A DNA stretch of 64,000 bases from Crambe crambe (Eukaryota; Porifera; Demospongiae; Poecilosclerida; Crambeidae), in NCBI GenBank assembly GCA_963924555.1, contig OZ004598.1, positions 1,574,501-1,638,500 of the forward strand, written 5' to 3'. Position numbers and translations under genes: made by a program. Below the pieces are notes generated by a model, which did no database searches, was not told the origin of the DNA, and worked only from the letters and a program-made list of their open reading frames with translations. The stretch's first letter is position 1. Every line of letters starts with the position of its first letter. Below, piece after piece: positions 8,740 through 55,171 of the stretch.

Positions 8740-9110
8740 CTTGTTATTTAATTTCACGGAAATGTTTTTTCCCGCATTTATATATTGGCCTGGCCTATGG
8801 TAAAGGGTCACCATAATGTGGATTTCTGCGCATGCGTCACAGTATAGTAGAATACAATGTGGAAATGAAACTTTAAACTTTGTAAAGAAAACATTCATTA
8901 GCCCTCGGTGCATGCATGCGAAAATAGGGGTTGGGTTGAGTTCAACTTGCTGCAGAAGTTCTTCTAGTTTGGGTGAGGACGCCTACTCCATTGAGATTAT
9001 AAAGAGCACATTCACAAGGAAGAAGAGGACTCAAGACCTGCAATCATAGGTGAAAATGTGTAATCTGTCTGTATTGCTCACCAAGATGCACAGAAGCCCT
9101 CCCTCCCCAT

Positions 9111-9466
9111 CTAAATAGCTGGAAAAAAGACCTTATTTTTACCTGCAGTCTTGACTTTGGAAGCAACACCTCTTTGACCAATGGCTTCCAGGGCAGTGGA
9201 TAAAGAAGTTGAACAGGGAGTACCACTGGTCTGAGTCACACCATCAGCCTCATTGAGCCAAGCATTCACCATTTCATCTGGCAAGCTCTTCATTCTTGTG
9301 AGGTTGGAATAGGATAATCCAAGAGCAGTTCCCAAATCTATCAAATTTCTATCGTCCAAAACTTTCAAAATCTTACAGACGTTGAAATGACTTGCTGTAG
9401 ATAAACGATTGCGTTCTTCCCTTTTGGTATTATCCACTACTTGAGCAGGTGGCAGAGATCCATAGC
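9111..9466 (-). CDS. NLR-1 terminal exon: C-terminal Death domain
   Basis: The last exon runs from the acceptor after tatag (9468-9467) to the TAG at 9111-9113. It opens with a linker (YGSLPPAQVVDN) and then a Death domain: ILKVLDDRNLIDLGTALGLS, a WLNEADG helix and a LSTALEAIG helix. Death domains are six-helix adaptors that nucleate signalling platforms by homotypic binding. Frame and phase (AG-GC joining) follow on from the previous exon. A possible donor (GCAG then gtaaaa at 9143/9142) lies 32 bases before the stop, so a further exon is possible. However, the NLR-2 copy differs in length here by whole codons, which favours reading to the stop. Confidence 0.82.
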
Positions 9467-9613
9467 CTATATTACATGAACTTCAGTATGCAAGTATTCA
9501 ATTTTAACACATTATATATGCCAAGTGCTCAATTGCTAATTCCTTGTCAATATAATTATGTCATGACTATAGTTATATCCATGACAGAGAGAGTCAAATA
9601 CCGGCTAACTTAC

Positions 9614-10176
9614 TGGGGACATTGTAGATGTAGAAACAGGGCTCTGTGTCAGATCCAGCTACACTTAGTCCAAGTGCTATAAGTTTTATTTTATTGGAGT
9701 GTTCTGGTTGAATTGGACAATATTCAATTGAGATCATCGGAGGATAATCAGGACACTCAGAAATATCCAAACCTAACACTTCTGGAAGATGGATGATTGT
9801 TTTTGAGATCTATTATGTCAGAGAATAATGTTGTAGTGAGTCCTATTTCAATGCATAGATTTTCTAATCTTATAAGCTCAACTAACCAAAGGATGCATAT
9901 CAAAGAAAATGTCCCATCCTTCTCTATTAGCCACACTAAGAGTAACTTCTTTGCTTTTCAGCTGGACGGTGATTATACTTTGTTTCCAGTTTTCTTCTTT
10001 TTCTTTCATCACAATGTCACAATGCTACATGTGGCAATGTATAGTTAATACTTTTCATAATTTATTGTCGCATGTTAATACCTTTGTATACACTTTTTGG
10101 GACAAACAGATGCAGAATATTGCCAAGTTTTGGGATAAACTTCTGTACAGCCTTGCAGAATACAACTGTGGGTTTC
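9614..10176 (-). CDS. NLR-1 UPA-domain exons (three)
   Basis: Three small exons link ZU5 to Death: 10176-10082 (95 nt, opening NPQLYSARLYRSLSQNLAIF), 10024-9883 (142 nt, HCDIVMKEKEENW onward) and 9781-9614 (168 nt, VLGLDISECPDYPP onward). I inferred them from acceptors tcatag, atgtag and ttccag and donors gtatta, gttgag and gtaagt. The phases 1-0-1-1 join without a stop. For the middle exon an alternative donor (gttagt at 9886) is stronger in sequence but would break frame. UPA is the beta-rich domain that follows ZU5 in UNC5, ankyrins, PIDD1 and the FIIND of NLRP1. The assignment rests on position and on the ARLYRSLS-LAIFCICLSQ pattern, so it is moderately certain. Confidence 0.68.
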
Positions 10177-10234
10177 CTATGATAACACAGTAAATATATA
10201 AACACGGAATAAATAAAAATAATCAAACACTCGC

Positions 10235-10705
10235 CTTTGGATCCAGTCTTTATTATACAAAAATGCCTCAAGGTAATCTCTCCTACTTGAGATCCAGGCC
10301 TGAACATTCCCATTTCCAGTATTTTCTGGAACACATACACTGATCTAGAGCCTCTTAATTTTGGAGTGGTGCTGGCTGCCAGGAACGCCATGTTATCACA
10401 GTCCTTCTCACTCTCCAGACAAGCATAGTGCTGAATCTTGACTGCTACATTTTTTTGAAATTTCACTCTCCTGCTAGGTCTGATCAGGTATGCTGGACTT
10501 GCTGACTCGTAATCATCTGGTAAATCAAATGGTCCACTGAAGCAAGGATGGATGAACAGAGTAACAGGTTCCTCTTCGGGACTCAGCGAATTTTCAGGGA
10601 TGGTCAGGGTTATTCCTGGACCCTCTATAACTACTTCTTCAGATGTATTAACTTCATGTATGATTGGATCCTGGTAAAACACTATTCCAGGAAACTCTGA
10701 GCTAT
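10235..10705 (-). CDS. NLR-1 ZU5 exon with HFC motif
   Basis: A 471-nt exon. The acceptor follows a long T-tract (tttcacag, AG at 10707-10706) and the donor is GC rather than GT (AAAG then gcgagt at 10234). It encodes a ZU5 domain: VVIEGPGITLTIPENSLSPE is the typical opening strand and PENSL turn, and VTLFIHPC follows. The domain closes LRHFCIIKTG, with His-Phe-Cys at 10265-10257 (residue about 1873 of the spliced protein counted from 15963). In PIDD1 and in the FIIND of NLRP1 and CARD8, the matching site is HF-Ser and is where the chain cleaves itself. The exon joins the LRR exon in phase 1 (FQ-N-SSEFPG) with no stop. The partner exon in unit B has the same length and the same HFC. Confidence 0.85.
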
Positions 10706-10787
10706 CTGTGAAAAAAAAAAAAAGACCATGTATTTAACCATGAATTGACCAATCAGATTGCTTGATTGAGACAAGGTTTTAACTCAC

Positions 10788-13700
10788 TTTGAAACACAGT
10801 TCTTGCATACATTAGAGCAGACTCTCTATCATTATATTGCAGGTTCGTACAGTGTTTTAGACATTCAGCAAGAGCCTTGGCACCATCAGCACCAATAGAG
10901 TTACTACGAAGATCCAGTGTTTGCAGGTTCGTACAGTGTTTTAGACCTTCAGCAAGAGCCTTGGCACCATCAACACCAATAGAGTTACTATGAAGATCCA
11001 GTGATTGCAGGTTCGTACAGTGTTTTAGACCTTCAGCAAGAGCCTTGGCACCATCAGCACCAATAGAGTTACTATCAAGATTCAACATTTGCAGGTTCGT
11101 ACAGTGTTTTAGACCTTCAGCAAGAGCCTTGGCACCATCAGCACCAATAGAGTTACTATCAAGATTCAGCGTTTGCAGGTTCGTACAGTGTTTCAGACCT
11201 TCAGCAAGAGCCTTGGCACCATCAAATCCGATATTTCTGGATTTAAAATTCAGTAACTGCAAGTTATAGTGGCTACCACATGTATTAGAGCAGAAAATAG
11301 ACAATGCAACACCAGCACAATCTATTTGAGAGAAATCCATGGAAGAAATGTCCACATCATGTTTGATATCGAGGAGAGTGTGAGCACCTTCGTTGGTGAT
11401 TTTTTGGTTGCATAACAGGAGTTTCACATCTTTCACTGCTCTGGTGATAGCTATTGCTCCTTCATCACCTATTTTATTACATCTCAAGTCCAGTGAGTGG
11501 AGATTAGTACAGAGAATAAGGCCTTCACTAAGAGATTTTGCTCCAGAATCACCTATAGCATTGAAACTGATGTCAAGTTTTTCAAGATGTGAAAGAGGGT
11601 TCCTTGTTAATGTTTCAGCAAGAGCAATTGATCCCTCATCACCAATGTTATTCACATTCAATACAAGTTCTTTCAAACCTGTATAAATTGACAAGCCTAT
11701 TGCAAAAACCTTAGCTCCATCATCCCCAATATTACAATTAGTAAGGATCAGTCTTGTACGATGCATGTTTGCATATTGTTCAAGACATTTTGAAACAAGC
11801 TCGACATCACTATTACTGAGCTCATGATTATGATGTAAGAAACCAAGCTCATAAATACTGTTGAAAAATGTAGAGATTCCAAAAGTTCCAATAAACTGAT
11901 CAGCTGTATCATACAACAAAGACTCGAGTGATTTAGGAAGCTTTATTAACCTTAATTTAGGACTGATAAATTTTAAAGATTCCAACACAGTATAATTAAT
12001 GTCATCAACCACAAGGGATTCAAGATTAGGTAAGGTGATCTTGCTAGTCAGAGCCTTCACTTTTAATGGTCCTAATTTTGTGTCAGATATATCTAATGTT
12101 TCCAAGGCACTCATTTGACCAAGTAAAACATTAACCAATTTAAGTTGAGCCATGTTGCAATTGCCTCCATGATAACATAGGGTCTGTATTGACATCACAT
12201 GACCACCAGCCTCATTCAAGAATGCAAAGATGCCTCCTTCCCCTAATGTGCACCTGTTTAACACAAGTTTCTTCACAGGATGTGATTCAGAAGCAGTGCT
12301 GGCAATGAAACCAATGGCTGTCATGTCTGATGGTGTCAAGAAGTGGCTTTTAAGAGTGAGACTACCTTCTTCTCCAGACTGTATTACACGATCACATATG
12401 ATGGATTGCTGAGATTCAAAGGTACATTGAACTTGGAAGAGATCATCATCCTGTGATTGTGATGACTTCATGAGCTCTTCAAACTTTGTCAAGTTAATAT
12501 CAAGGCCACAGAAAAACTTCCACACCACTTGCATGTGTTTCTTCTTCCCATATGTCTTGATAACTTTAGTCTGTTCCTCTTCCTCAAGTTGACAAATGTG
12601 ATATGCTGCCAGATATTCCTGGAAAGTCAGATGGAGGAATGTGTACAAGTCCTGAAATCCACTTAACATAGAAATGCGATCTACATTGATCAACCCAAGG
12701 GACTTGCTGCTACTTTTAACGTCCTTTAAGAAGTCCTTGACTTCATTGTGCTTCATGACTTGCTTGGAAGTTTTGGTCTTTTCAAAAGCAAGTTTGCATA
12801 TTTCAAGGAATAGCTTTCTTTCTTGTGCTGGTAGATCTTTGGGTGAATCTAAGCAAGGCTCATTTTCTTCATATCGTGTCAGACTACGAAGGAGTGTAAA
12901 ATTGGTGAAATTCTTGTACATTTCTGTCTCGGTTTGTGGAAGACTGCAACCCATTTCATCAAATAAAAAACACACCATGGCAGAGTGAATGGGAAGGTAG
13001 CACATGTGATGGACGTTAGGATGTTGAGCAAGGTAAGAATGAAGATCTCCAGTTTTTTCAGTGCTTGAAAAGTTATACTTTTCTATGTACTGGAATATCT
13101 GCTCCTTTTCGAATCCGAGAACTTCCACTCGTTTAGTGGCTACTTTCTTCAACTGGGCTACAGCAGCTGGACGAGATGCAACTATGACAACTGACTTGGG
13201 AAGAATATTTCTCTTGATAAGCTGGAAAATCGTTGCTTCATTCTTCCTTGGGGGGGAATACTCATCCAGTCCATCTAATATGAAACACAGCCCTTCACCA
13301 CTGTTACTCTCAGCATGACTTATAATGGATGATACAGATGATTCATTTTCATAGTATCGTTTCATAATGTCAGTCAATTGAATATCAGGATCATTAAAGA
13401 ACCCTCGTAAGTGAACAAGAAATAAAAGCCTGATACTATCCAGTTGTAGCTCATTCTTGGCCCAATCTCGGCTGACCTTGTGGACAAGTGTGGTCTTCCC
13501 ACTGCCTGGACGGCCTTCAATAAATAATCGTGCCCCAGTCTCGAGACGTGAAAACACTTCATTATACTCGATCTTCTCCTTATCTTTCAAGATATCGTCT
13601 ATATCTCCTTGTATGGTGTTGTAGGCATACTCCCCAGCTTTGTTGATTTCACTCTGTTTGATCAGAGCTAAATTGATGAAAGTGTTATTACTTACTGGTG

Positions 13701-15963
13701 GCCAAGTGTCTTCAGGTATTTCTGGTTGAGATAAATATCTATCTATAAGAGTCCTCTTTTCAGGAGGAACTATTACAGTTAATTTAATAGGCTCACTTTG
13801 TAACTTTTTATTTGCATGAGTTTGTACTTCACAATGATAAGTTCCTTCTGATGCCATGGTTACATCATTTATGCATAGTATTTGCTTACGAGTACCACAA
13901 TAAGTGGAGTCATCACTCAAGGGAGCACGATCTTTCATCCATTGGTAGGTGATGGTGGTATCATGGCTGGTAGACAACTGTACTTCAAGAAGAGTCGACT
14001 TTTCTTCATTTACCTTTAAGTCATGTGTCCGGCGAACTATTTCCATGGGTGTGACTTGTGAACATGGTCGCTTCATTGGGGATTCATTAATAAGACATAC
14101 CTCATATAATAGAAGTGTCTCTCGCAATTCACTGCCCACACTACCTAAGCTGACAGCTTTACTGTTGAGTACCTGTTCAAGACTCTCTACTGTGGGAGGT
14201 TTGGCATATTTATAACCACCAGCTATCCACTTCCATAGTAGATGACCCAAACGATTTCTATTAGTGTTATAAATATGCAACATGTCAAGAGGCAAATTCA
14301 ACGCTATACCAATTTCTTGCCACTTGTGGGAATGATCAGCAAGTATCTCTGTCAAAACTGAGACATGTTTCTGTGTAAAGTAGAAATTAGATCCGTGAGG
14401 TCGTTTCATACCTACCATAACCTCACCACTCTCACTGACACACGATTCCTCACCACTCACTTCTCTTGTGTACCACTCATACCTCTGCCTCACTTGGCCC
14501 AATAAGGCATCAGTTACACCAAAACGAGAAAGTAAGTTCAGCCATTTCTCATAATGAATACTAGATTTATTATCAATCCTCTCGTATGCATACATAAATA
14601 AGTACCTGATCTTGAGTGAGCAGGATACATTTGAATCAAGTGAGTCAAAGCTATTCTTGATAGTTTGGGGGATTAATCCCGTCTCTAATGCCTCTTTAGC
14701 AAAATTTGTGAGATCAGCATCTTTGAGAGAAGTTACTAGTTCATCTTCATAATCCTTAAGAGATTTTACTCTTTCAGGTGAAATTATTAAAGTTAATTTA
14801 ATAGGCTCACTTTGTAACTTTTTATTTTCATAAGTTTGTACTTCACAATGATAAGTTCCTTCTGATCTCATGGTTACATCATTTATGCATAGTATTTGCT
14901 TATGAGCATCACGAGTTTTTGAATCATTACTTAAGGGGACACCATCTTTCATCCATTGGTAAGTGATACCAGTAGTATCATGGCTGGTAGTGACCTGCAC
15001 CTCAAGAAGAACAGATTTTTCTTTTATTACCTTACAATCAGAAGTTTGAGAAACAATTTGAATAGGGGTGACTTCTAAACATGGTCGCTTTGAAGCTGAT
15101 ACTTCAAGAAGAACAGACTTTTCTTCAGTTACCTTGTCATGGGCTTCTACAGGGGTGAGTTCTAAACGTGGTTGCTTTGAGGCTGATACTTCACTAGTGA
15201 GATACACCCCATGCTTTCTGAGGTTTTCTTGTAATTCATTAGCCTCACTATCAAGATCAACAGTCTTACTACAAAGTGTTTCTTCAAGACTTTTTACTGT
15301 GGGAGGTTTTGCATGTTCATGATTACCAATTATCCATTCCCGCAATACCTTTTTCAAACAGATTTTAATGCCGTCTTTATGCATCGTAGCCAATATATTG
15401 TGCAATACATCATCATCTAAGTTCAGTAAAGTGCCAATCGCATACCACTTGTGGCCGTAATTGGCAAGTATCTCTGTCAAAACTGAAACATGCTCTTCAG
15501 AAAAGTAATCACATTTGTGTGGTCTCTTCGTACCTATTACATCCCCAGCATTCGCACCACCAGATACACTATAATCACTTTCTCTTGCACAATACCCTTC
15601 ATAACTAAGTCTCACTTGCTCTAATGCTTCACTAGATGCACCATGCTCAGATAATAACTTAAGCCATCGCTCATAGAATCTAGGATTTCTCTGCAATGAC
15701 TCGTACACATGTAAAAATAAGTATCTGATCTTTGTTGACCAGTGCACATTAGGATCCATTGACTCTAAACTTTTCTTCACATCCCGAGAGATAAATCCTC
15801 TCTCTAATCCAGATCTAGTTAAACTCACAAGATCAGTGTCCTTGAGTGAAGCTACTAACTTGTCTTCATGGTCCTTAAGAGCTTTCACTGCTGCTGATAC
15901 TGGTTCAAGATGACTTCCTTTGGAGGATGAAGGCTCCAGCTCACTTTCGTCTATTGTGGCCAT
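10788..15963 (-). CDS. NLR-1 main exon: (CARD-Death-Ig)x2-NACHT-LRR
   Basis: A single uninterrupted 5.2-kb exon of a NOD-like receptor, presumably a cytosolic immune sensor (no signal peptide or membrane segment seen). From Met at 15963 the order is: CARD-like (about residues 25-108), Death (155-232), Ig (315-395), CARD-like (398-482), Death (528-605), Ig (656-731), NACHT (Walker A GRPGSGKTT near 817, Walker B LCFILDGLDE near 891) and degenerate LRRs. Then come four near-identical 28-residue LRRs (ALAEGLKHCTNLQTL type) and a truncated fifth that runs into the linker ESALMYARTVFQ. The exon ends at TTTCAAA/gtgagt (10788). The Met is the one conserved with NLR-2; an upstream in-frame Met lies at 15975. 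The frame stays open upstream to an acceptor at 16014, so coding may start earlier (see the Death exons at 17266-18159). Confidence 0.93.
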
Positions 15964-28308: not shown

Positions 28309-28779
28309 CTTTGGATCCAGTCTTTATTATACAAAAATGCCTCAAGGTAATCTCTCCTACTTGAGATCCAGGCCTGAACATTCCCATTTCCAGTATTTTC
28401 TGGAAAACATACACTGATCTAGAGCCTCTTAATTTTGGAGTGGTGCTGGCTGCCAGGAACGCCATGTTATCACAGTCCTTCTCACTCTCCAGACAAGCAT
28501 AGTGCTGGATCTTGACTGCTACATTTTTCTGGAATTTCACTCTCCTGCTATGTCTGATCAGGTATGCTGGACTTGCTGACTCGTAATCATCTGGTAAATC
28601 AAATGGTCCACTGAAGCAAGGATGGATGAAAAGAGTAACAGGTTCCTCTTCGGGACTCAGCCAATTTTCAGGGATTGTCAGGGTTATTCCTGGACCCTCG
28701 ATAACTACTTCTTCAGATGTTATAACTTCATGTACGATTGGATCCTGGTAAAACACTATCCCAGGAAACTCTGAGCTAT
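28309..28779 (-). CDS. NLR-2 ZU5 exon with HFC motif
   Basis: A 471-nt exon, the same length as in NLR-1. The donor here is canonical (AAAG/gtgagt at 28308), where NLR-1 has GC. ZU5 landmarks are GPGITLTIPENWLSPEE, then LFIHPCFSGPFDLPDD and LRHFCIIKTGSKG at the end. HFC is encoded at 28339-28331 (residue about 1994 from Met 34543). Phase-1 joins on both sides match the linker exon and the first UPA exon. Confidence 0.85.
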
Positions 28780-28876: not shown

Positions 28877-28919
28877 TTTGAAACACAGTGTAAGTGTCAC
28901 TTGCATACGTTAGAGCAGA
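28877..28919 (-). CDS. NLR-2 linker exon between LRR and ZU5
   Basis: A 43-nt exon encoding SALTYASDTYTVFQ plus one base, with donor TTTCAAA/gtgagt identical to the end of the NLR-1 main exon. The acceptor is an AG-AG tandem (atcacagag); using the second AG gives phase 0, which fits a donor CAT/gtaaag at 29048 in the LRR exon. In NLR-1 the same residues (ESALMYARTVFQ) are fused directly to the LRR exon with no intron. This exon decides whether NLR-2 gains its ZU5-UPA-Death tail. Confidence 0.6.
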
Positions 28920-29047
28920 CTCTGTGATTTGAGGTCAATGTCCTATTTCCCATTGGTTCAGTTTCGCTTCACAACCTACATCCTGACAGGATTAATCACT
29001 ACCACATTATACAATAGTTATCAGAAGTAGTATGACAGGTTCTTTAC

Positions 29048-32000
29048 ATGCTGTAAATGATCAGCAAGAGCCTTGGCACCATCATCACCAATAGAGTTAT
29101 TCCAGAGATACAGTGTTTGCAGGTTCGTACAGTGTTTTAGACCTTCAGCAAGAGCCTTGGCACCATCATCACCAATGGAGTTATTCCAGAGATACAGTGT
29201 TTGCAGGTTCGTACAGTGTTTTAGACCTTCAGCAAGAGCCTTTGCACCATCATCACCAATAGAGTTACTACTGAGATCCAGTTTTTGCAGGTTCTTACAG
29301 TGTTTTAGACCTTCAGCAAGAGCCTTGGCACCATCATCACCAATAGAGTTACTACTGAGATCCAGTTTTTGCAGGTTCGTACAGTGTTTTAGACCTTCAG
29401 CAAGAGCCTTGGCACCATCATCACCAATAGAGTTACTACTGAGATCCAGTTTTTGCAGGTTCGTACAGTGTTTTAGACCTTCAGCAAGAGCCTTGGCACC
29501 ATCATCACCAATAGAATCACTTTGAAGATTCAGCATTTGCAGGTTTGTATAGTGTTTTAGACCTTCAGCAAGAGCCTTGGCACCATCATCACCAATAGAG
29601 TTACTATAAAGATCCAGTGTTTGCAAGTTCGTATAGTGTTTTAGACCTTCAGCAAGAGCCTTGGCACCATCAGCACCAATACGGTTCCAATTGAGATGCA
29701 GTGTTTGCAGGTTTGTACAGTGTTTTAGACCTTCAGCAAGAGCCTTGACACCATCATCACCAATAAATTTATAATTGAGATTAAGCTTCACTGACCTTAC
29801 TTTAGGACTATTAAATTTTAATGATTTCAAAAAAGCATAATCACCAACTACAAGGGTTTCAAAATTAGGTAAGGTGATATTGCTAGTCAGAGCCTGCACT
29901 TTTTTTGGTCCTAATTTTGTGTCAGATATATCTAATGTTTCCAAGGCACTCATTTTACCAAGTAAAATATTAACCAATTTAAGTTGTGCCATGTTGCAAT
30001 TGCCTCCATGGTAACTTAGGGTATGTATTGACATCACACGATCGCCAGCCTCCTGAAAAAATGCACTGATGCCTTCTTCCCCTAATGTGCACCTGTTTAA
30101 CACAAGTTTCTTCACAGGATGTGATTCAGAGGCAGTGCTGACAACGAAACCAATGGCTGTCAAGTCTGATGGTGTCAAAAAGTGGCTTTTAAGAGTGAGA
30201 CTACCTTCTTCTCCAGACCGAATCACACTGTCACATACGATGGATTTTTGAGATTCAAAGGCACACTGAATGTGAAATAGATCATCAGGTGATTCTGAGC
30301 ATTTCACAAGTTTTTCAAACTTCTTTGTATCATTTTCGAAATCAATAAGACCACAGTGAAACTTCCACACCACATGCATATGTTTCTTCTTACCATACTT
30401 CTCTATTATTTTAGTCTGTTCCTCCTCACCTAATTTAGTGATGTGATAAGCTGCAAGATATTCTTGAAAGGTGAGATGAAGAAACGTGTACAAGTCTTGG
30501 AATCCAAATTTGGCAGCAATGCAGTCTACAGTGATCAATCCCAGGGACTCTTTCCCACAACTCACATCCTTAAAGAAATGCTTAATCTCACTGCGCTTCA
30601 TCACTTGCTTGGAAGATACTGTTTTTTCAAAGGCAAGTTTACAAATCTGGAAAAAAATACCTCTTTCCACTTCAGGAAGATCGTCAGGTGACTGCAAATA
30701 TCTTTCATTTTCATCGCAGCGCATTACAGTACGAAGGAGAGTGTGGATCATGAATGATGTATACATTTCTGTCTCAGTTCTAGCAAGGGCAGTACCCATA
30801 AGGTTGAATAAATAGCACACCATGGAAGCATGGATTGGAAGGTAGCACATGTGATGCACATTAGGATGCTGCTCAAGATAAGATTCAAGATTCTGGATTT
30901 TCTCAACATTTGAAAATTTGTACTCTTTTATGTACTGAGATATTTGTTGCTTCTGGAATCCAAGAACTTCCACTCGTTTGGTGGCTACTGACTTCAAATG
31001 CACCACAGCAGCTGGACGAGAAGCTACTACTACAATTGATTTGGGAAGAAGCTCTTTATTTATAAGTTTAAATATGGTGGTATTTTTCTTCCCTTTAGGC
31101 GAGTACTCATCTAGTCCATCAAGAACAAAGCAAAGACCTTCCCCACTAAACTGCTCTGAGATTTGGTCAAGTTCAATTTGATCTTCGTAATAATATTTCA
31201 AAATATCACGCAATTGAATAGAAGGATTATTAAGAAGTACTCGCAGATGGACCAGAAATAAAAGTCGAATATTCTTCAGATTTAGTTTGCCACTGGCCCA
31301 ATCTTGGCTGAACTTGTGGACAAGTGTGGTCTTCCCACTACCTGGACGACCTTCAATAAGCAATCGTGTCCCACTAACAAGATTTGAAAATACTTCTTCG
31401 TACTCTATTCTGTCCTTGTCTTTTAAAATGTCATCCACATCTCCTTGTATGGTGTTGTATGCATACTCCCCAGCCTTGTCAATTGCACCTGGTTTGATCA
31501 GAGCTAAGTTAATGTAAGTGTTATTACTTACTGGGGGCCACGTGTCCTTAGGTACTTCAGGTTGGGATAAATACATATCAATAAGCACTTTTTTCTCAGG
31601 TGAAACTTTAACAATTAATTTAATAGGCTCACTTTGTAACTTTTCATTTTCACGAGTTTGTATCTCACAATGATAAGTTCCTTCTGATGCCATGGTTACA
31701 TCATTTATGCATAGTATTTGCTTATGAGTACCACAATAAGTGGAATTATCATTCAAGGGAGCACCATCTTTCATCCATTGGTAGGTGATGGTGGTATCAT
31801 GGCTGGTAGTAACCTGTACTTCAAGAAGAGTCGACTTTTCTTCATTTACCTTTAAGTCATGTGTCTGGCGAACTATTTTCATGGGTGTGACATGTAAACA
31901 TGGCTGCTTTATTGGGCCGTGCCTAACTTGGCCTAATAAGCCATCAGCTACACCAAACTGAGAAAGTAAGTTCAGCCACTTCTCATACTGAATACTAGAA

Positions 32001-34543
32001 TCATTATCAATTGTCTCGTATGCATTCATAAATAAGTACCTGATCTTGAGTGAGCAGGGTACATTTGAGTCAAAGCTATTCTTGATCATTTGGGGGATAA
32101 ATCCTGTCTCTAATGCCTCTTTAGCAAAACTCATGAGATCAGCATCTTTGAGAGATTTGAGAGAAGTCACTAGTTCATCTTCATAATCTTTAAGAATTTT
32201 TACTCTTTTAATTACAGTTAATTTAATAGGATCACTTACCAACTTTTTATATTTATGAGTTTGTATTTCACAATGATAAGTTCCTTCTGATGTCATGGTT
32301 ACACTGTTAATGCATAGTATTTGCTTACAAGTACCACAATAAGTGGGATTATTATTCAAGGGAGCACCACCTTTCATCCATTGGTAGGTGATGGTGGTAT
32401 CCTGGCTGGTAGACAACTGTACTTCAAGAAGAGTCGACTTTTCTTCATTTACCTTTAAGTCATGTGTCTGGCGAACTATTTCCATGGGTGTGACTTGCAA
32501 ACATGGTCGCTTCATTGGGCTGTGTCTCACTTGGCCTAATAAGTCATCAGTTGCACCAAACTGAGAAAGTAAGTTCAGCCATTTCTCATAATGAATACTA
32601 GAATTATTATCAATCCTCTCGTATGCATACATAAATAAGAACCTGATCTTGAGTGAGTAGGGTACATTTGAATCAAAGAAATCAAAGCTATTCTTGATCA
32701 TTTGGGGGATAAATCCTGTCTCTAATGCCACTTTAGCAAAACTCATGAGATCAGCATCTTTGAGAGATTTGAGAGAAGTTACTAGTTCATCTTCATAATA
32801 TCTAAGAACTTCTACTCTTTTAATTACAGTTAGTTTGATAGGATCACTTACCAACTTTTTGTAATCATGATTTTGTATTTCACAAAAATAAGTTCCTTCT
32901 GATGTCATGGTTACACTGTTAATGCATAGAATTCGCTTATGAGTACCACAATAAGTGGAATTATCATTCAAGGGAGCACCATCTTTCATCCATTGGTAGG
33001 TGATGGTGGTATCCTGGCTGGTAGATATCTGTACTTCAAGAAGAGTTGACTTTTCTTCATTTACCTTTAAGTCATATGTCTGGCGAACTATTTCCATGGG
33101 TGTGACTTCCAAACATGGTCGCTTCATTGGGCAGTGCCTCACTTGGCCTAATAAGTCATCAGTTACACCAAACTCAGAAAGTAAGTTCAGCCATTTCTCA
33201 CAAAGAATGCTAGAATTATTATCAATCCTCTCGTATGCATTCATAAATAAGTACCTGATCTTGAGTGAGCAGGATACATTTGAATCAAGCGAGTCAAAGC
33301 TATTCTTGATCATTTGGGGGATAAATCCTGTCTCTGATGCCTCTTTAGCAAAACTCATGAGATCAGCATCTTCGAGAGATTTGAGAGAAGTTGCTAGTTC
33401 ATCTTCATAATATCTAAGAACTTTTACTCTTTTAATTACAGTTAATTTAATAGGATCACTTACAAACTTTTCATTTTCATGAGTTTGGATTTCACAATGA
33501 TAAGTTCCTTCTGATGCCATGGTTACATCATTTATGCATAATATTTGCTTACGAGTACCACAATAAGTGGAATTATCATTCAAGGGAGCACTATCTTTCA
33601 TCCATTGGTAGGTAATGGTGGTATCATGGCTGGTAGTGACCTGTACTTCAAGAAGAGCTGATTTTTCCTCATTGACTTCAAAGTTACGTGTTTGGGATAA
33701 AATTTCCATGGAGGTATTATCTAAGCGTGGTCTCTTTAATGATGGTTCACCAGTGAGACACACCCCATGCTTTCTGAGGTTTTCTTGTAATTCATTAGCC
33801 TCACTACCAAGACCAACAATCTTACTACGAAGTGTTTCTTCAAGACTTTCTACTGTGGGAGGTTTCGCATGTTCATGATTACCAATTATCCATTCCTGCA
33901 AAACTTCTTTCAAAAAAATCACGAGACCAAGACCATGTAGATTCATTTTGACTACTATGTTATGTAACACGCTATCACTTAAGTTCAGTGAAGTGCCAAT
34001 CTCATTCCACTTACGGCAGTGATTGGCAAGTATCTCTGTCAAAACTGGGACATGCTCTTCAGAAAAATAATCACATTTGTGTGGTCTCTTTGTACCTACT
34101 ACAACCCCAGCATTCACACCACCAGATACACTTTCTCTTGCACAATACTCTTCAGAACTAAGTCTTGCTTGCTCTAATGCATAACTAAGTCTCACTTGCT
34201 CTAATGCTTCACTAGATGCACCATGTTTGGATAATAACTTAAGCCATCGCTCATAGAGTCTAGGATTACTCTGCAGTGACTTGTACACATGTAAAAATAA
34301 GTACCTGATCTTTGTCGGCCAGTGCACATTAGGATCCATTGACTCTAAATTTTTCTTCACATCCTGAGAGATGAATCCTCCCTCTGATCCAAATCTAGCC
34401 AATCTTACGAGGTCAGTGTCCTCGAGTAAATCTACTAACTTGTCTTCATGGTCCTTAAGAGCTTTCACTGCTGCTGATACTGGTTCAAGATGACTTCCTT
34501 TTGAGGATGAAGGCACCAGCTCACTTTCATCTTTATTGGCCAT
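29048..34543 (-). CDS. NLR-2 main exon: CARD-Death-Ig, (CARD-Ig)x3, NACHT, LRRx8
   Basis: One uninterrupted exon with conserved Met at 34543 (MANKDESE). Order by residue: CARD-like (about 20-120), Death (158-235), Ig (296-368), then three CARD-Ig modules of about 612 bp each (373-571, about 577-776, about 780-980) and NACHT (Walker A GRPGSGKTT near 1065, Walker B LCFVLDGLDE near 1137). Eight 28-residue LRRs follow (about 1592 onward), several nearly identical in DNA, with a cap ADHLQHVKNL. Relative to NLR-1 and NLR-3, the degenerate middle LRRs are missing. If unspliced, the frame ends YYF-stop at 29021; splicing at CAT/gtaaag (29048) continues into the linker and ZU5 exons. The spliced total is 2260 codons. 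The frame is open upstream to an acceptor at 34585, again phase 1. Confidence 0.93.
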
Positions 34544-50221: not shown

Positions 50222-53200
50222 TCAGTATGACAGGTTTTTTACATGCTGTAAACAATTAGCAAGAGCCTTGGCACCATCAGCACCAATAGAGTTAAGTCCG
50301 AGATCCAGTGTTTGCAGATTCGTACAGTGTTTTAGACTTTCAGCAAGAGCCTTGGCACCATCAGCACCAATAGAGTTATTATGGAGATCCAGTGTTTGCA
50401 GGTTCATAGAGTGTTTTAGACCTTCAGCAAGAGCCTTGGCACCATCATCACCAATAGAGTTAAGAAAGAGATTCAGCGTTTGCAGGTTCGTACAGTGTTT
50501 TAGACCTTCAGCAAGAGCCTTGGCACCATCAGCACTAATAGAGTTACATTCAAGATCCAGTGTTTGCAGGCTTGTACAGTGTTTTAGACCTTCAGCAAGA
50601 GCCTTGGCACCATCAGCACCAATAGAGTTGAAAGAGAGATTCAGTGTTTGCAGGTTCGTACAGTGTTTTAGACCTTCAGCAAGAGCCTTGGCACCATCAG
50701 CACCAATAGAGTTACTGTAAAGATCCAGTGTTTGCAGGCTTGTACAGTGTTTTAGACCTTCAGCAAGAGCCTTGGCACCATCAGCACCAATAGAGTTACT
50801 GTAAAGATCCAGTGTTTGCAGGTTCGTACAGTGTTTTAGACCTTCAGCAAGAGCCTTGGCACCATCATCACCAATAGAGTTACTGTAAAGATTCAGTGTT
50901 TGCAGATTCGTACAGTGTTTTAGACATTCAGCTAGAGACTTGGCACTATCAGATCTGATCTCCTTAGATTTAAAATTCAGTAACTGCAAGTTATAGTGGC
51001 TACCACATGTATTAGAGCAGAAAACAGACAATGCAGCACCAGCACGATCTATTTGAGAGAAATCCATGGAAGAAATGTCCACATCATGTTTGATATTGAG
51101 GAGAGCGATACCACCTTCTTTGGTGATTTTTTGGTTGCATAACAGGAGTTCCACATCTTTCACTGCTCTGGTGATAGCTATTGCTCCTTCATCACCTATT
51201 TTATTACATCTCAAGTCCAGTGAGTGGAGATTAGTACAGAGAATAAGGCCTTCACTAAGAGATTTTGCTCCAGAATTACCTATAGCATTGAAACTGATGT
51301 CAAGTTTTTCAAGATGTGAAAGAGGGTTCTTTGTTAATGTTTCAGCAAGAGCAATTGATCCCTCATCACCAATGTTATTCATATTCAACACAAGTTCTTT
51401 CAAACCAGCACAATGTGACAAGCCTACTGCACAAGTCTTAGCTCCATCATCACCAACATTACAATTAGTAAGGATCAATCTTGTACAATGTGAGTGCTGT
51501 TCAAGACATTTTGAAACAAGTTTGACATCACTATAACTGAGCTCATGATTATGAAGATCTAAGAAATCAACTATTGATAGCTCACAAATACTGTTGAGAA
51601 AAGTACTAAGCCCAAAAATACTGATAAAACGATCAGTTGAATCGAACGACAAATGCAGTTCAGGAAGCTTCACTAACCTTACTTTAGGAGTATTAAATTT
51701 TAATGATTCCAAAAAAGCAGAATCACCAACTACAAGGGTTTCAAGATTAGGTAAGGTGATCTTGCTAGTCAGAGCCTGCACTTTTTTTGGTCCTAATCCT
51801 GTGTTAGATATATCTAATGTTTCCAAGGTACTCATTTTACCAAGTAAATTATTAACCAACTCAAGTTGAGCCATGATGCAATTGCCTCCATGGTAACATA
51901 GGGTCTGTATTGACACCACACGATCACCAGCCTCTTTCAAGAATGCACTGATGCCTTCTTCCGCTAATGTGCACCTGTTTAACACAAGTTTCTTAACAGG
52001 ATGTGATTCAGAGGCAGTTCTGACAACGAAACCAATGGCTGTCATGTCTGATGGTGTCAAGAAGTGGCTTTTAAGAGTGAGACTACCTTCTTCTCCAGAC
52101 CAAATCACACTGTCACATATGGTGGATTGCTGAGATTCAAAGGCACACTGAATGTGAAATAGATCATCAGGTGATTTTGACCATTTCACAAGTTTTTCAA
52201 ACTTCTTCGTATCATTTTTGAAATTGATAAGACCACAGTAAAACTTCCACACCACACGCATATGTTTCTTCTTACCATACTTCTCTATTATTTTAGTCTG
52301 TTCCTCCTCACCTAATTTAGTGATGTGATAAGCTGCAAGATATTCTTGAAAGGTGAGATGAAGAAACGTGTACAAGTCTTGGAATCCAAATTTGGCAGCA
52401 ATGCAGTCTACAGTGATCAATCCCAGGGACTCTTTCCCACAACTCACCTCCTTAAAGAAATGCTTAATCTCACTGCGCTTCATCACTTGCTTGGAAGATA
52501 CTGTTTTTTCAAAGGCAAGTTTACAAATCTGGAAAAAAATACCTCTTTCCACTTCAGGAAGATCGTCAGGTGACTGCAAATATCTTTCATTTTCATCGCA
52601 GCGCATTACAGTACGAAGGAGAGTGTGGATCATGAATGATGTATACATTTCTGTCTCAGTTCTAGCAAGGGCAGTACCCTTAAGGTTGAATAAATAGCAC
52701 ACCATGGAAGCATGGATTGGAAGGTAGCACATGTGATGCACATTAGGATGCTGCTCAAGATAAGATTGAAGATTCTGGATTTTCTCAGCATTTGAAAATT
52801 TGTACTCTTTTATGTACTGAGATATTTGTTGCTTCTGGAATCCAAGAACTTCCACTCGTTTGGTGGCTACTGACTTCCAATGCACCACAGCAGCTGGACG
52901 AGAAGCTACTACTACAATTGATTTGGGAAGAAGCTCTTTATTTATAAGTTTAAATATGGTGGTATTTTTCTTCCCTTTAGGTGAGTACTCATCTAGTCCA
53001 TCCAGAACAAAGCAAAGACCTTCCCCACTAAACTGCTCTGAGATTTGGTCAAGTACAATTTGATCATCGTAATAATATTTCAAAATATCATGCAATTTAA
53101 TAGAAGGATCGTTAAGAAGTACTCGCAGATGGATCAGAAATAAAAATCTAACATTTTTCAGATTTAGCTTGCCACTGGCCCAATCTTGGCTGAACTTGTG

Positions 53201-55171
53201 GACAAGTGTGGTCTTCCCACTACCTGGACGACCTTCAATAAGCAATCGTGTCCCACTAACAAGATTTGAAAATACTTCTTCGTACTCTATTCTGTCCTTG
53301 TCTTTTAAAATGTCATCCGCATCTCCTTGTATGGTGTTGTATGCATACTCCCCAGCCTTGTCAATTGCACCTGGTTTGATCAGAGCTAAGTTAATGTAAG
53401 TGTTATTACTTACTGGGGGCCACGTGTCTTCAGGTACTTCAGGTTGGGATAAATACATATCAATAAGCACTTTTTTCTCAGGTGAAACTTTAACAATTAA
53501 TTTAATAGGCTCACTTTGTAAATTTCCATTTTCATGGGTTTGTACCACACAATGATAAGTTCCTTCTGATGCCATGGTTACATCATTTATGCATAGTATT
53601 TGCTTACGAGTACCACAATAAGTGGAGTCATCACTCAAGGGAGCACCATCTTTCATCCATTGGTAGGTGATGTTGGTATCATGGCTGGTAGATACCTGTA
53701 CTTCAAGAAGAGTCGACTTTTCTTCATTTACCTTTAAGTCACGTGTCTGGCGAACTATTTCCATGGGTGTGACTTGCAAACATGGCCGCTTCATTGGGCT
53801 GTGCCTCACTTGGCCTAATAAGTCATCAGTTACACCAAACTCAGAAAGTAAGTTCAGCCATTTCTCACAAAGAATGCTAGAATTATTATCAATCCTCTCG
53901 TACGCATACATAAATAAGTACCTGATCTTGAGTGAGCAGGGTACATTTGAATCAAGCAGGTCAAAGCTATTCTTGATAGTTTGGGGGGTAAATCCTATTT
54001 CTGATGCCTCTTTAGCAAAACTCATGAAATCAGCATTTTTGAGAGATTTGAGAGAAGTCACTAGTTCATCTTCATAATATTTAAGAACTTCTACTCTTTT
54101 AATTACAGTTAGTTTGATAGGATCACTTACAAACTTTTTGTATTCATGATTTTGTATTTCACAAAAATAATTTCCTTCTGATGTCATGGTTACACTGTTA
54201 ATGCATAGAATTCGCTTATGAGTACCACAATAAGTGGAATTATCACTCAAGGGAGTACCATCTTTCATCCATTGGTAGGTGATGGTGGTATCATGGCTGG
54301 TAGTGACCTGTACTTCAAAAACAGTTGACTTTTCTTCGTTTACGCTTAAATCACGTGTCTGGTGAATTATTTCCATGGGTGTTACTTGTAAACATGGTCG
54401 CTTTATTGGGGACGCATAAATGAGACATACCCCATGTAATTGAAGGGTCTTTCGCAATTTACTTCCCACACTACCTAAGCCAACAGTTTTACTGTTGAGT
54501 GCCTGTTCAAGACTCTCTATTGTGGGAGGTTTGGCATACTCATGACCACCAGCTATCCACTCCGACAGTAGTCGACCCAAACAACTTCCACCAGTTTGAA
54601 AAATATGCAACATAGCCATTATATTTTGAAGTATATCAAAAGGCAAACTCAACGCTATACCAATATCGTACCACTTGTGGGAATGACCAGCAAGTATCTC
54701 TGTCAAAACTGAGACATGTTTCTGTGTAAAGTAGAAATTAGATCTGTGAGGTCGTTTCATACCTACCACCACCTCACCACTCTCACTGACACACGATTCC
54801 TCACCACTCACTTCTCTTGTGTACCAGTCATACCTCTGCCTCACTTGGCCTAATAAGGCATCAGTTACACCAAAACGAGAAAGTAAGTTCAGCCATTTCT
54901 CATAATGAATACTAGAATTATTATCAATCCTCTCGTATGCATTCATAAATAAGTACCTGATCTTGAGTGAGCAGGATACATTTGAATCAAGCGAGTCAAA
55001 GCTATTCTTGATCATTTGGGGGATAAATCCTGTCTCTAATGCCTCTTTAGCAAAACTCGTGAGATCAGCATCTTTGAGAGAAGTTACTAGTTCATCTTCA
55101 TAATCTTTAAGAGCTTTTATTTCTTCTGACACTTGTTCAGAAAGGACAGATGAAGGTGTGGATGTGGCCAT
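50222..55171 (-). CDS. NLR-3: CARD-Death-Ig-CARD-Ig-NACHT-LRR
   Basis: A single uninterrupted exon from MATSTPSS (Met at 55171; an upstream in-frame MHA lies just before) to NLSY-stop at 50222. Order: CARD-like (55110-54870), Death (54730-54490), Ig (54330-54105), CARD-like (54090-53850), Ig (53715-53500), NACHT with Walker A GRPGSGKTT (near residue 644) and Walker B LCFVLDGLDE, degenerate LRRs, then eight 28-residue LRRs and a cap ANCLQHVKNL. Its NACHT follows NLR-2 closely, while its middle LRRs (NIGDEGSIALAETL) follow NLR-1, so it is a mosaic. No ZU5, UPA or Death exon follows. The upstream sequence has an acceptor (agtttcag near 55222) that would not keep frame, so the start is probably in this exon. 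A cytosolic receptor without the self-cleaving tail is implied. Confidence 0.93.
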   Translation of the reverse strand: MATSTPSSVLSEQVSEEIKALKDYEDELVTSLKDADLTSFAKEALETGFIPQMIKNSFDSLDSNVSCSLKIRYLFMNAYERIDNNSSIHYEKWLNLLSRFGVTDALLGQVRQRYDWYTREVSGEESCVSESGEVVVGMKRPHRSNFYFTQKHVSVLTEILAGHSHKWYDIGIALSLPFDILQNIMAMLHIFQTGGSCLGRLLSEWIAGGHEYAKPPTIESLEQALNSKTVGLGSVGSKLRKTLQLHGVCLIYASPIKRPCLQVTPMEIIHQTRDLSVNEEKSTVFEVQVTTSHDTTITYQWMKDGTPLSDNSTYCGTHKRILCINSVTMTSEGNYFCEIQNHEYKKFVSDPIKLTVIKRVEVLKYYEDELVTSLKSLKNADFMSFAKEASEIGFTPQTIKNSFDLLDSNVPCSLKIRYLFMYAYERIDNNSSILCEKWLNLLSEFGVTDDLLGQVRHSPMKRPCLQVTPMEIVRQTRDLKVNEEKSTLLEVQVSTSHDTNITYQWMKDGAPLSDDSTYCGTRKQILCINDVTMASEGTYHCVVQTHENGNLQSEPIKLIVKVSPEKKVLIDMYLSQPEVPEDTWPPVSNNTYINLALIKPGAIDKAGEYAYNTIQGDADDILKDKDRIEYEEVFSNLVSGTRLLIEGRPGSGKTTLVHKFSQDWASGKLNLKNVRFLFLIHLRVLLNDPSIKLHDILKYYYDDQIVLDQISEQFSGEGLCFVLDGLDEYSPKGKKNTTIFKLINKELLPKSIVVVASRPAAVVHWKSVATKRVEVLGFQKQQISQYIKEYKFSNAEKIQNLQSYLEQHPNVHHMCYLPIHASMVCYLFNLKGTALARTETEMYTSFMIHTLLRTVMRCDENERYLQSPDDLPEVERGIFFQICKLAFEKTVSSKQVMKRSEIKHFFKEVSCGKESLGLITVDCIAAKFGFQDLYTFLHLTFQEYLAAYHITKLGEEEQTKIIEKYGKKKHMRVVWKFYCGLINFKNDTKKFEKLVKWSKSPDDLFHIQCAFESQQSTICDSVIWSGEEGSLTLKSHFLTPSDMTAIGFVVRTASESHPVKKLVLNRCTLAEEGISAFLKEAGDRVVSIQTLCYHGGNCIMAQLELVNNLLGKMSTLETLDISNTGLGPKKVQALTSKITLPNLETLVVGDSAFLESLKFNTPKVRLVKLPELHLSFDSTDRFISIFGLSTFLNSICELSIVDFLDLHNHELSYSDVKLVSKCLEQHSHCTRLILTNCNVGDDGAKTCAVGLSHCAGLKELVLNMNNIGDEGSIALAETLTKNPLSHLEKLDISFNAIGNSGAKSLSEGLILCTNLHSLDLRCNKIGDEGAIAITRAVKDVELLLCNQKITKEGGIALLNIKHDVDISSMDFSQIDRAGAALSVFCSNTCGSHYNLQLLNFKSKEIRSDSAKSLAECLKHCTNLQTLNLYSNSIGDDGAKALAEGLKHCTNLQTLDLYSNSIGADGAKALAEGLKHCTSLQTLDLYSNSIGADGAKALAEGLKHCTNLQTLNLSFNSIGADGAKALAEGLKHCTSLQTLDLECNSISADGAKALAEGLKHCTNLQTLNLFLNSIGDDGAKALAEGLKHSMNLQTLDLHNNSIGADGAKALAESLKHCTNLQTLDLGLNSIGADGAKALANCLQHVKNLSY

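Follow-up and report, generated by a model that had tools for sequence, protein, structure and literature searches.

The 64,000-nucleotide (nt) window examined here, from the demosponge Crambe crambe (GenBank assembly GCA_963924555.1, contig OZ004598.1, positions 1,574,501 to 1,638,500), carries a tandem cluster of NOD-like receptor (NLR) genes. One of these, gene 1, runs in phase from an exon encoding NACHT and leucine-rich repeats (LRRs) into ZU5, UPA-like, and Death-like exons. A first-pass annotation had read gene 1 as a receptor of the NLRP1/PIDD1 kind with His-Phe-Cys (HFC) at the self-cleavage position. We analyzed the gene, its paralogues, and the relatives of its C-terminal tail across the genome (143 Mb, 119 contigs). 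Gene 1 has an open, in-phase exon chain whose tail belongs to a sponge ankyrin-repeat family, and self-cleavage at HFC is plausible given the modeled position of the site and the analogy with known self-cutting domains. Coordinates refer to the window unless a genome contig is given. The features of gene 1 are as follows:

10788..15963, minus strand: exon 1, with two death-fold-like/Ig units, NACHT, LRRs, and an ankyrin-repeat remnant in an intact frame
10788..10824, minus strand: the ankyrin-repeat remnant ESALMYARTVFQ at the end of exon 1, with a phase-1 donor, recognized by its likeness to an ankyrin motif of locus L009
10235..10705, minus strand: exon 2, ZU5 domain, 471 nt, with a confident structure model and fold matches to ankyrin ZU5 and GAIN domains
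10257..10265, minus strand: HFC codons, with a cut predicted between F and C from the break before the last ZU5 strand and from conservation
10082..10176, minus strand: exon 3, UPA-like part 1 (LYSARLYRSLSQNLAIFCICL), named by resemblance and without a Pfam UPA match
9887..10024, minus strand: exon 4, UPA-like part 2, named by resemblance
9614..9809, minus strand: exon 5, UPA-like part 3, named by resemblance
9111..9466, minus strand: exon 6, Death-like (9466-9143 if spliced to exon 7, otherwise running to a stop at 9111)
9012..9037, minus strand: exon 7, likely the last coding exon (GLESSSSL-stop), in phase in gene 1, gene 2, and locus L014

Exon 1 begins at the ATG at 15963 and is a single exon of 5176 nt, or 1,725 codons, that ends in phase 1. 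By a simple consensus measure made for this analysis, its donor, AAA/GTGAGT at 10788/10787, scores highest of the 47 donor-like sites listed there. The ZU5, three UPA-like, and Death-like exons all join in phase, and the splice sites and phases of gene 1 agree with the LRR-to-Death chain first proposed from the sequence. Intron 2 opens with a GC donor (AAG/GCGAGT), and gene 2 has GT at the same place. With the end at 9111, the exons sum to 6432 nt, or 2144 codons including the stop (a model of 2,143 amino acids), which is 24 nt more than the earlier count of 6408 nt and 2136 codons. This end requires reading through a donor at 9143/9142 within the Death exon. Exon 7 at 9037-9012 shows a 3-nt indel across copies with the frame kept, and it brings the gene 1 sum to 6426 nt; its pattern was looked for and not found in L009, L010, and L013. 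Judged by these sequence features, 9037-9012 is the likelier coding end, so that of the span 9111..15963 the start stands and the end would hold only by donor read-through. The string LRHFCIIKTG does occur in both annotated copies, with HFC at 10265-10257 in gene 1 and at 28339-28331 in gene 2.

Pfam profiles identify NACHT (3.3e-25) followed by LRR_6 (1.2e-40) in gene 1, both above cut-off, as well as two I-set stretches (5.6e-14) in the N-terminal half. The N-terminal 252 residues and two further pieces gave no death-fold match in Pfam and have only a helical look. At 15963-13700 in gene 1 and 34543-31590 in gene 2, I-set Ig domains alternate with death-fold-like units in the N-terminal half of what is otherwise a cytosolic-type NLR, and these units are seemingly more numerous in gene 2. 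The ZU5 of gene 1 falls just below the Pfam threshold (20.2 versus a 21-bit cut-off), and the joined ZU5-UPA parts of two relatives score 21.2 bits (L036) and 17 bits (L019). We assign the domain to ZU5 on this near-cut-off profile score together with a confident structure model whose top matches include ankyrin ZU5 domains; searching the PDB by sequence, with either the gene 1 tail or the alignment of ZU5 exons, brought up no relative of ZU5. There is one ZU5 stretch in gene 1, with no second copy ahead of UPA-Death. Exons 3-5 resemble UPA, and we use that label in this sense. The Death exon scores weakly (13.2 versus 22.6 bits, E 0.12 alone), and the exon at the same position in L025 passes the Death profile at 3.3e-6. 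An AlphaFold2 (AF2) model of the gene 1 Death exon is all-helical with a low confidence of 52.5. We found no C-terminal CARD in gene 1, the weak Death match standing in its place.

The AF2 model of the ZU5 exon, built on an alignment of 46 sequences, has a mean predicted local distance difference test (pLDDT) score of 93.6. In it, H147-F148-C149 fills the break between strand 140-145 (VGEITL) and the last strand, 150-155. HFC thus sits before the last strand in a model of ZU5 alone, which agrees with the active-site position assigned to it in the first-pass annotation. Ten Foldseek matches reach probability 1.00, with template modeling (TM) scores by query of 0.63 or less; these are ankyrin ZU5 domains and the GAIN domains of CD97 and BAI3. 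A published model of CARD8 has its SF/S motif on the loop that leads into the last strand (PMC3210808); in rat NLRP1 the cut falls at F968/S969 (PMC8081665). Measured cutters use Ser, with Cys generally accepted as a nucleophile in such chemistry (PMC3210808). The ZU5 superfamily has been termed a thiol autopeptidase with a C-terminal CxH motif (PMC3482391), unlike the HxC order of gene 1. In GAIN domains the cut is made at H-X-S/T and the His acts as base; in the text consulted, no conserved acid-base residue near the site is reported besides the motif itself, but a conserved Phe packs against the His and a well-conserved Glu lies at a greater distance (PMC13062082). Relative to the GAIN motif, HFC would need just Cys in place of Ser/Thr.

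The site is well conserved in the tail family outside the C3 clade. The tail protein has at least 132 exon matches in the genome, at least 96 of which cover ZU5 by row count; the tail-protein and NACHT counts given here are minimum values, since 100 of 686 and 103 of 232 candidates, respectively, were scored. We aligned 77 ZU5 exons, 13 of the C3 type and 64 of other types, the latter including gene 1 and its four close cluster copies. Excluded before counting were the stop-carrying L027 and L034 (both HFC) and L076 (HF-stop), the truncated L094 (no HFC), and the distant L004, L095, L096, L098-L101, and L103; L097 and L102 gave no alignment. In the 64 non-C3 exons, His is present in 59, Phe in 61, and Cys in 61, and the whole HFC in 57, with HFS in one. 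The residues other than Cys at P1' are Ser (L088, HFSWW), Tyr (L065), and a gap (L078). All 13 C3-type exons carry SLQ or SLR instead, and this clade is predicted to be cleavage-dead. Its members (L005-L008, L081, L083, L085, L086, and L089-L093) form tandem ankyrin-ZU5 arrays at G000:C3 about 7.49-7.83 Mb and occur also on C5 and C12. Among distant ZU5 proteins of the genome, L004 has HFS, L001 and L100 have HFC, and L102 has HLC.

Under a second reading, the gene 1 product is one protein that is never cut, its ZU5-UPA-Death part serving as a rigid scaffold as in ankyrins and UNC5 and HFC being the structural end of the ZU5 sandwich; we put this somewhat short of an even chance. Several results speak for it or weigh against a self-cutting tail. 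The top solved folds are those of ankyrins, and no ankyrin is known to cut itself. Among the best 50 of 275 Foldseek rows, there is no FIIND or UNC5B structure. Pfam UPA does not match the gene 1 tail exons, and in the genome as a whole, it gave one sub-threshold match elsewhere (C9, E 0.197), with no signal from any control genome. Pfam FIIND matches neither gene 1 nor its tail, and a search over the genome at E ≤ 10 returned nothing, although its control was uninformative and the search is weak alone. The HF(C/S) pattern is also found in L001, a probable membrane protein with weak likeness to UNC5B and ZO-1; the SLQ/SLR clade was amplified without HFC; and BAI3, among the top fold matches, has RLS and shows no observed cleavage as the wild-type full-length receptor (PMC13062082).

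The residues that assist cutting in FIIND also appear to be missing. Comparison by hhalign yielded no meaningful match to FIIND and MAFFT misplaced the FIIND proteins, so we used distances from an anchor instead. When the sequences are anchored by hand on a shared strand His, a register that is not independent proof, the FIIND His (H270, H1186, and H942) aligns to S111, which is Ser in 60 of 64 exons, and FIIND Glu279 aligns to a Lys/Pro stretch. From the strand His to P1', the distance is 57 residues in gene 1, 58 in its relative L020, 54 in UNC5B (counting 18 unseen residues as X), and 45 in both NLRP1 proteins and CARD8; from P1' to the first UPA strand, the values are 15, 31, 17, and 23, respectively. 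By the features compared, the gene 1 ZU5 is not a FIIND, and any cutting would follow the PIDD1/GAIN way. Against the scaffold reading stand the P1' column, with Cys in 61 of 64 exons and Ser in one (L088); the joint replacement of His, Phe, and Cys by S-L-Q/R in the 13 C3-type copies, as expected for one functional site; and the presence of GAIN domains, which cut at H-X-S/T, among the top fold matches.

Additional observations concern the surroundings of this site in other loci. L001 (G000:C15:2655925-2656191) is an open reading frame for a probable membrane protein whose ZU5 ends in MHFCSF, with E values of 0.051 to UNC5B (3g5b) and 9.4e-5 to ZO-1 (2kxs). The divergent member L088 (G000:C6:4327930-4328510) has Ser at the site (THFSWW) and is thus of the HF/S type, and L102 ends in EHLCYLC, a GPS-like HLC. 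Most of L016-L036 carry a basic GKRKR-like stretch right behind HFC that is absent from gene 1 and the cluster copies; a tail released from such a protein would start with a nuclear-signal-like patch. ZU5 matches at G000:C6:5006137-5142707 and C6:4030724 lie in very long open frames (1436-4537 amino acids).

The origin of gene 1 was compared with the other copies in the cluster, of which the window holds the following:

29021..34543, minus strand: gene 2, a paralogous NLR exon with its own stop (ADHLQHVKNLSYYF-TGA, stop codon 29023-29021), its tail unjoined
28877..28921, minus strand: gene 2 ankyrin remnant exon SALTYASDTYTVFQ, flanked by a CAG acceptor and a GTGAGT donor
28309..28779, minus strand: gene 2 ZU5 exon with HFC, followed by UPA-like and Death-like exons onward to 27185
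50225..55138, minus strand: gene 3, an NLR paralogue ending in LQHVKNLSY-stop, used as a comparison copy

The gene 2 stop sits ~100 nt ahead of the remnant exon SALTYASDTYTVFQ, after which comes the ZU5 exon. The natural end of gene 3, which has no ZU5 match after it in the window, resembles that of the gene 2 NLR. An LRR stop and a spacer also precede the tails of L010 and L013, so that three of the five tail copies of the cluster retain both. Neither gene 1 nor L014 has kept the terminal repeat or the stop, little of the spacer remains in either, and their LRR frame continues into the ankyrin remnant; in L014, just two repeats are left. Within 4 kb upstream of the L010 and L014 tails there is no NACHT match, both lying behind LRR fragments. 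A NACHT match with a same-strand ZU5 exon at most 5 kb downstream occurs at least three times (gene 1, gene 2, and L013, from match lists compared by eye), and these three all lie in this cluster. The GTGAGT donor after the ankyrin remnant or repeats is present in all six close copies (gene 1, gene 2, L009, L010, L013, and L014). The layout of NLR, ZU5, UPA, and Death is supported by frame and splice sites for gene 1, whereas the second copy has its own stop and no LRR-ZU5 join, a difference that the first-pass annotation does not mention. With 50 donor-like sites listed in its NLR exon, gene 2 may still splice from within the LRR exon around that stop.

The tail itself is at home with ankyrin repeats. 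In 22 ZU5 loci outside the NLR cluster and of other than C3 type, each with about 1.5 kb of upstream sequence, at least four ankyrin motifs lie in one frame upstream in 14 and fewer than four in eight, and none has two or more LRR motifs. (The ankyrin motif missed the C3 type, 0 of 4, yet L005 has ankyrin repeats by Pfam Ank at 7.3e-40.) All 10 ankyrin-linked loci that were checked have a phase-1 donor behind the repeats, and no in-frame stop precedes it in nine of them. Gene 1 has the exon order of this sponge ankyrin-ZU5-UPA-Death family, ZU5 followed by UPA-like and Death-like parts, and its own upstream ankyrin repeats are reduced to the remnant, whose ESALMYA resembles the motif GRSALMYAS upstream of ZU5 in L009. 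A tree of the 77 ZU5 exons places the five LRR-linked tails in one clade (0.92), sister to L009 (0.999), and with a midpoint root, this group is nested in the part of the tree that holds ankyrin-linked copies. L009, the closest relative outside the cluster, has ankyrin repeats upstream, in a part that changes frame. We considered whether L009 might be a processed, intronless retrocopy of a tail transcript, which would have confirmed the joins, and rejected this: intervening sequence interrupts L009 at the same places, as in a genomic copy. Because of the copies with stop and spacer, the ankyrin-linked relatives, the phase-1 donors, and the nesting in the tree, gene 1 is by sequence comparison a derived chimera, made by what would be a local fusion in the tandem NLR cluster.

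A different possibility is that the join is not used and gene 1 is really two neighbors, with the NLR reading to the stop in intron 1 (10755-10753) and the tail an orphaned, decaying ankyrin-type copy that spreads with the NLR repeats. The unjoined state is seen exactly in gene 2 and L013, and the L010 tail is likewise unjoined behind an LRR fragment; as noted, NACHT is also missing nearby upstream of L010 and L014. Selection on the tail is uneven, and the lack of clear constraint on UPA part 3 and Death counts against the joined gene. Between gene 1 and gene 2, ZU5 looks constrained, with a synonymous divergence (dS) of 0.088 and a nonsynonymous divergence (dN) of 0.012 (8.5 and 4.5 differences), but UPA part 3 (dS 0.067, dN 0.110) and Death (dS 0.025, dN 0.046) have dN above dS on few differences, as they do against L010 and L014, and are not visibly constrained. 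Whole-tail dN/dS is 0.61-0.87 for gene 1 versus the other cluster copies and 0.60 versus L009, from small counts, and the L013 Death exon has a frame change. On the other side, the compared tail codons contain no stops. With the 118 changes that separate gene 1 from L009 placed at random, 4.3 stops are expected on average and none arise in 1.3% of trials; for the 54 changes from gene 2, none arise in 13%, a weak test. ZU5 constraint and the top-scoring donor at 10788 also speak for the join. The tail thus looks mostly kept open, with only ZU5 clearly constrained, and the orphaned tail is a live rival to which we assign a substantial minority probability. This alternative concerns the join and the scaffold concerns the cut; both can hold, and their probabilities need not sum to one.

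Ancient homology with NLRP1, in which the NACHT-LRR-ZU5-UPA layout would predate the sponge/vertebrate split, seems very improbable to us: the domain order is the same and sponge and cnidarian surveys list NACHT with ZU5, but the join is local, derived, and nested in an ankyrin-linked family, gene 1 has no FIIND match, and its P2 residue and death-fold domain differ from those of NLRP1. Of the two origins offered in the first-pass annotation, an ancient relative is therefore disfavored by the three cluster tails that keep stop and spacer, by the ankyrin linkage of L009, and by confident folds of the ankyrin ZU5/GAIN rather than FIIND type, and a convergent form, derived locally by exon capture, fits better. 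A lineage-specific expansion of ZU5 in sponges has been noted (PMC3482391), and the combination of NACHT and ZU5 has been recorded in both sponges and cnidarians (PMC12909245 and PMC8260672), the NACHT-Zu5 genes being tabulated in a supplement (PMC12909245). Among the open-literature papers that our searches listed, no title or abstract opening described an NLR-ZU5-UPA-Death fusion or an HFC-cutting ZU5.

The chimera reading can be put as a sequence of events. An ordinary NLR exon, with death-fold-like/Ig units, NACHT, and LRRs, would have lost its terminal repeat and stop. Its frame would then have run on into an ankyrin-ZU5-UPA-Death gene at the last ankyrin fragment, the other repeats of that gene having been lost, and would so have captured the phase-1 donor and the ZU5-UPA-Death exons. 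In the resulting protein, the LRR/NACHT part may sense a signal or be targeted itself, while ZU5 would fold over UPA-Death and keep it quiet. ZU5 would cut itself between Phe and Cys of HFC, with His as base and Cys as nucleophile, and both chains would stay together; once the N-terminal one is lost, UPA-Death would be free and could recruit death-fold partners. The sequence analysis shows the open frame, the in-phase splice sites, the family from which the tail comes, and the place and conservation of HFC in a confident ZU5 model, while we infer that the join is transcribed, that ZU5 cuts itself, and that UPA-Death is repressed and then released. As a whole, this explanation, a chimera of an NLR and an ankyrin-family tail with a self-cut/release mechanism, has in our view about an even chance of being right. 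We hold it doubtful that every part of a wider claim is correct, namely that the sponge built an NLRP1-type receptor independently by exon capture, with unjoined gene 2 and joined gene 1 in one cluster, and that its tail, along with that of the large ankyrin-linked family, is released by a Cys ZU5 autoprotease (HF/C) whose site one clade lost.

Should the join be expressed and HFC cut, a sponge would have arrived independently at the NLRP1/PIDD1 scheme of a sensor, a self-cut ZU5, and a releasable UPA-death fold, by way of fusion with a pre-existing signaling tail. The window would then offer, in gene 2 and gene 1, a before-and-after pair on how such sensors are assembled. The family, with natural Cys (HFC), Ser (HFSWW in L088), and null (SLQ/SLR) variants, would be a panel already at hand for probing the requirements of ZU5 autoproteolysis.

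Elsewhere in the genome, two NACHT matches at G000:C21:1293156-1297937 share an equal open-frame length of 2701 amino acids and possibly belong to a double-NACHT receptor. The silicatein-type motif CGASYAF has six genome matches, against none for the reversed motif used as a control, and the two that we translated continue in silicatein style; we take the host to be a siliceous sponge. At G000:C15:872855-884857, three pairs of oppositely oriented silicatein-like active-site motifs are evenly spaced about 5.05 kb apart.

Compared with known systems, gene 1 shares with human and rodent NLRP1 the order NACHT-LRR-ZU5-UPA-death fold and a candidate cut site just before the last ZU5 strand (PMC3210808 and PMC8081665). 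It differs in having HFC where NLRP1 has SFS, and so lacks the SF/S motif of FIIND; in having Ser and a Lys/Pro stretch for the FIIND His (H1186/H942) and Glu, in the hand-anchored alignment; in a Death-like domain rather than CARD, Ig domains in the N-terminal half, and no PYD match; and in its ankyrin ZU5/GAIN folds and locally formed join. PIDD1 likewise has LRRs followed by ZU5-UPA-Death, with an HF/S motif that places His at P2 (PMC3210808), but gene 1 has one ZU5 rather than two, a NACHT domain, and Cys for the Ser of HF/S. In TRADD-N proteins, too, an immune protein is joined to a FIIND or UPA-ZU5 module, and the authors predict autoproteolysis for them; these are TRADD-N architectures of other animals, and the text consulted describes no NACHT-LRR-ZU5-UPA-Death fusion (PMC8195603). 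The GAIN domains of adhesion G-protein-coupled receptors, matched through CD97 and BAI3, have an H-X-S/T cut motif, but they are extracellular receptor domains with a Ser/Thr nucleophile, and BAI3 is cleavage-resistant (PMC13062082). Finally, with respect to the sponge ankyrin-ZU5-UPA-Death family, gene 1 has an NLR in place of the ankyrin repeats, of which a 12-residue remnant is left, and is without the GKRKR-like stretch after HFC, but it shares the ZU5, UPA-like, and Death-like exons and the phase-1 donor before ZU5.

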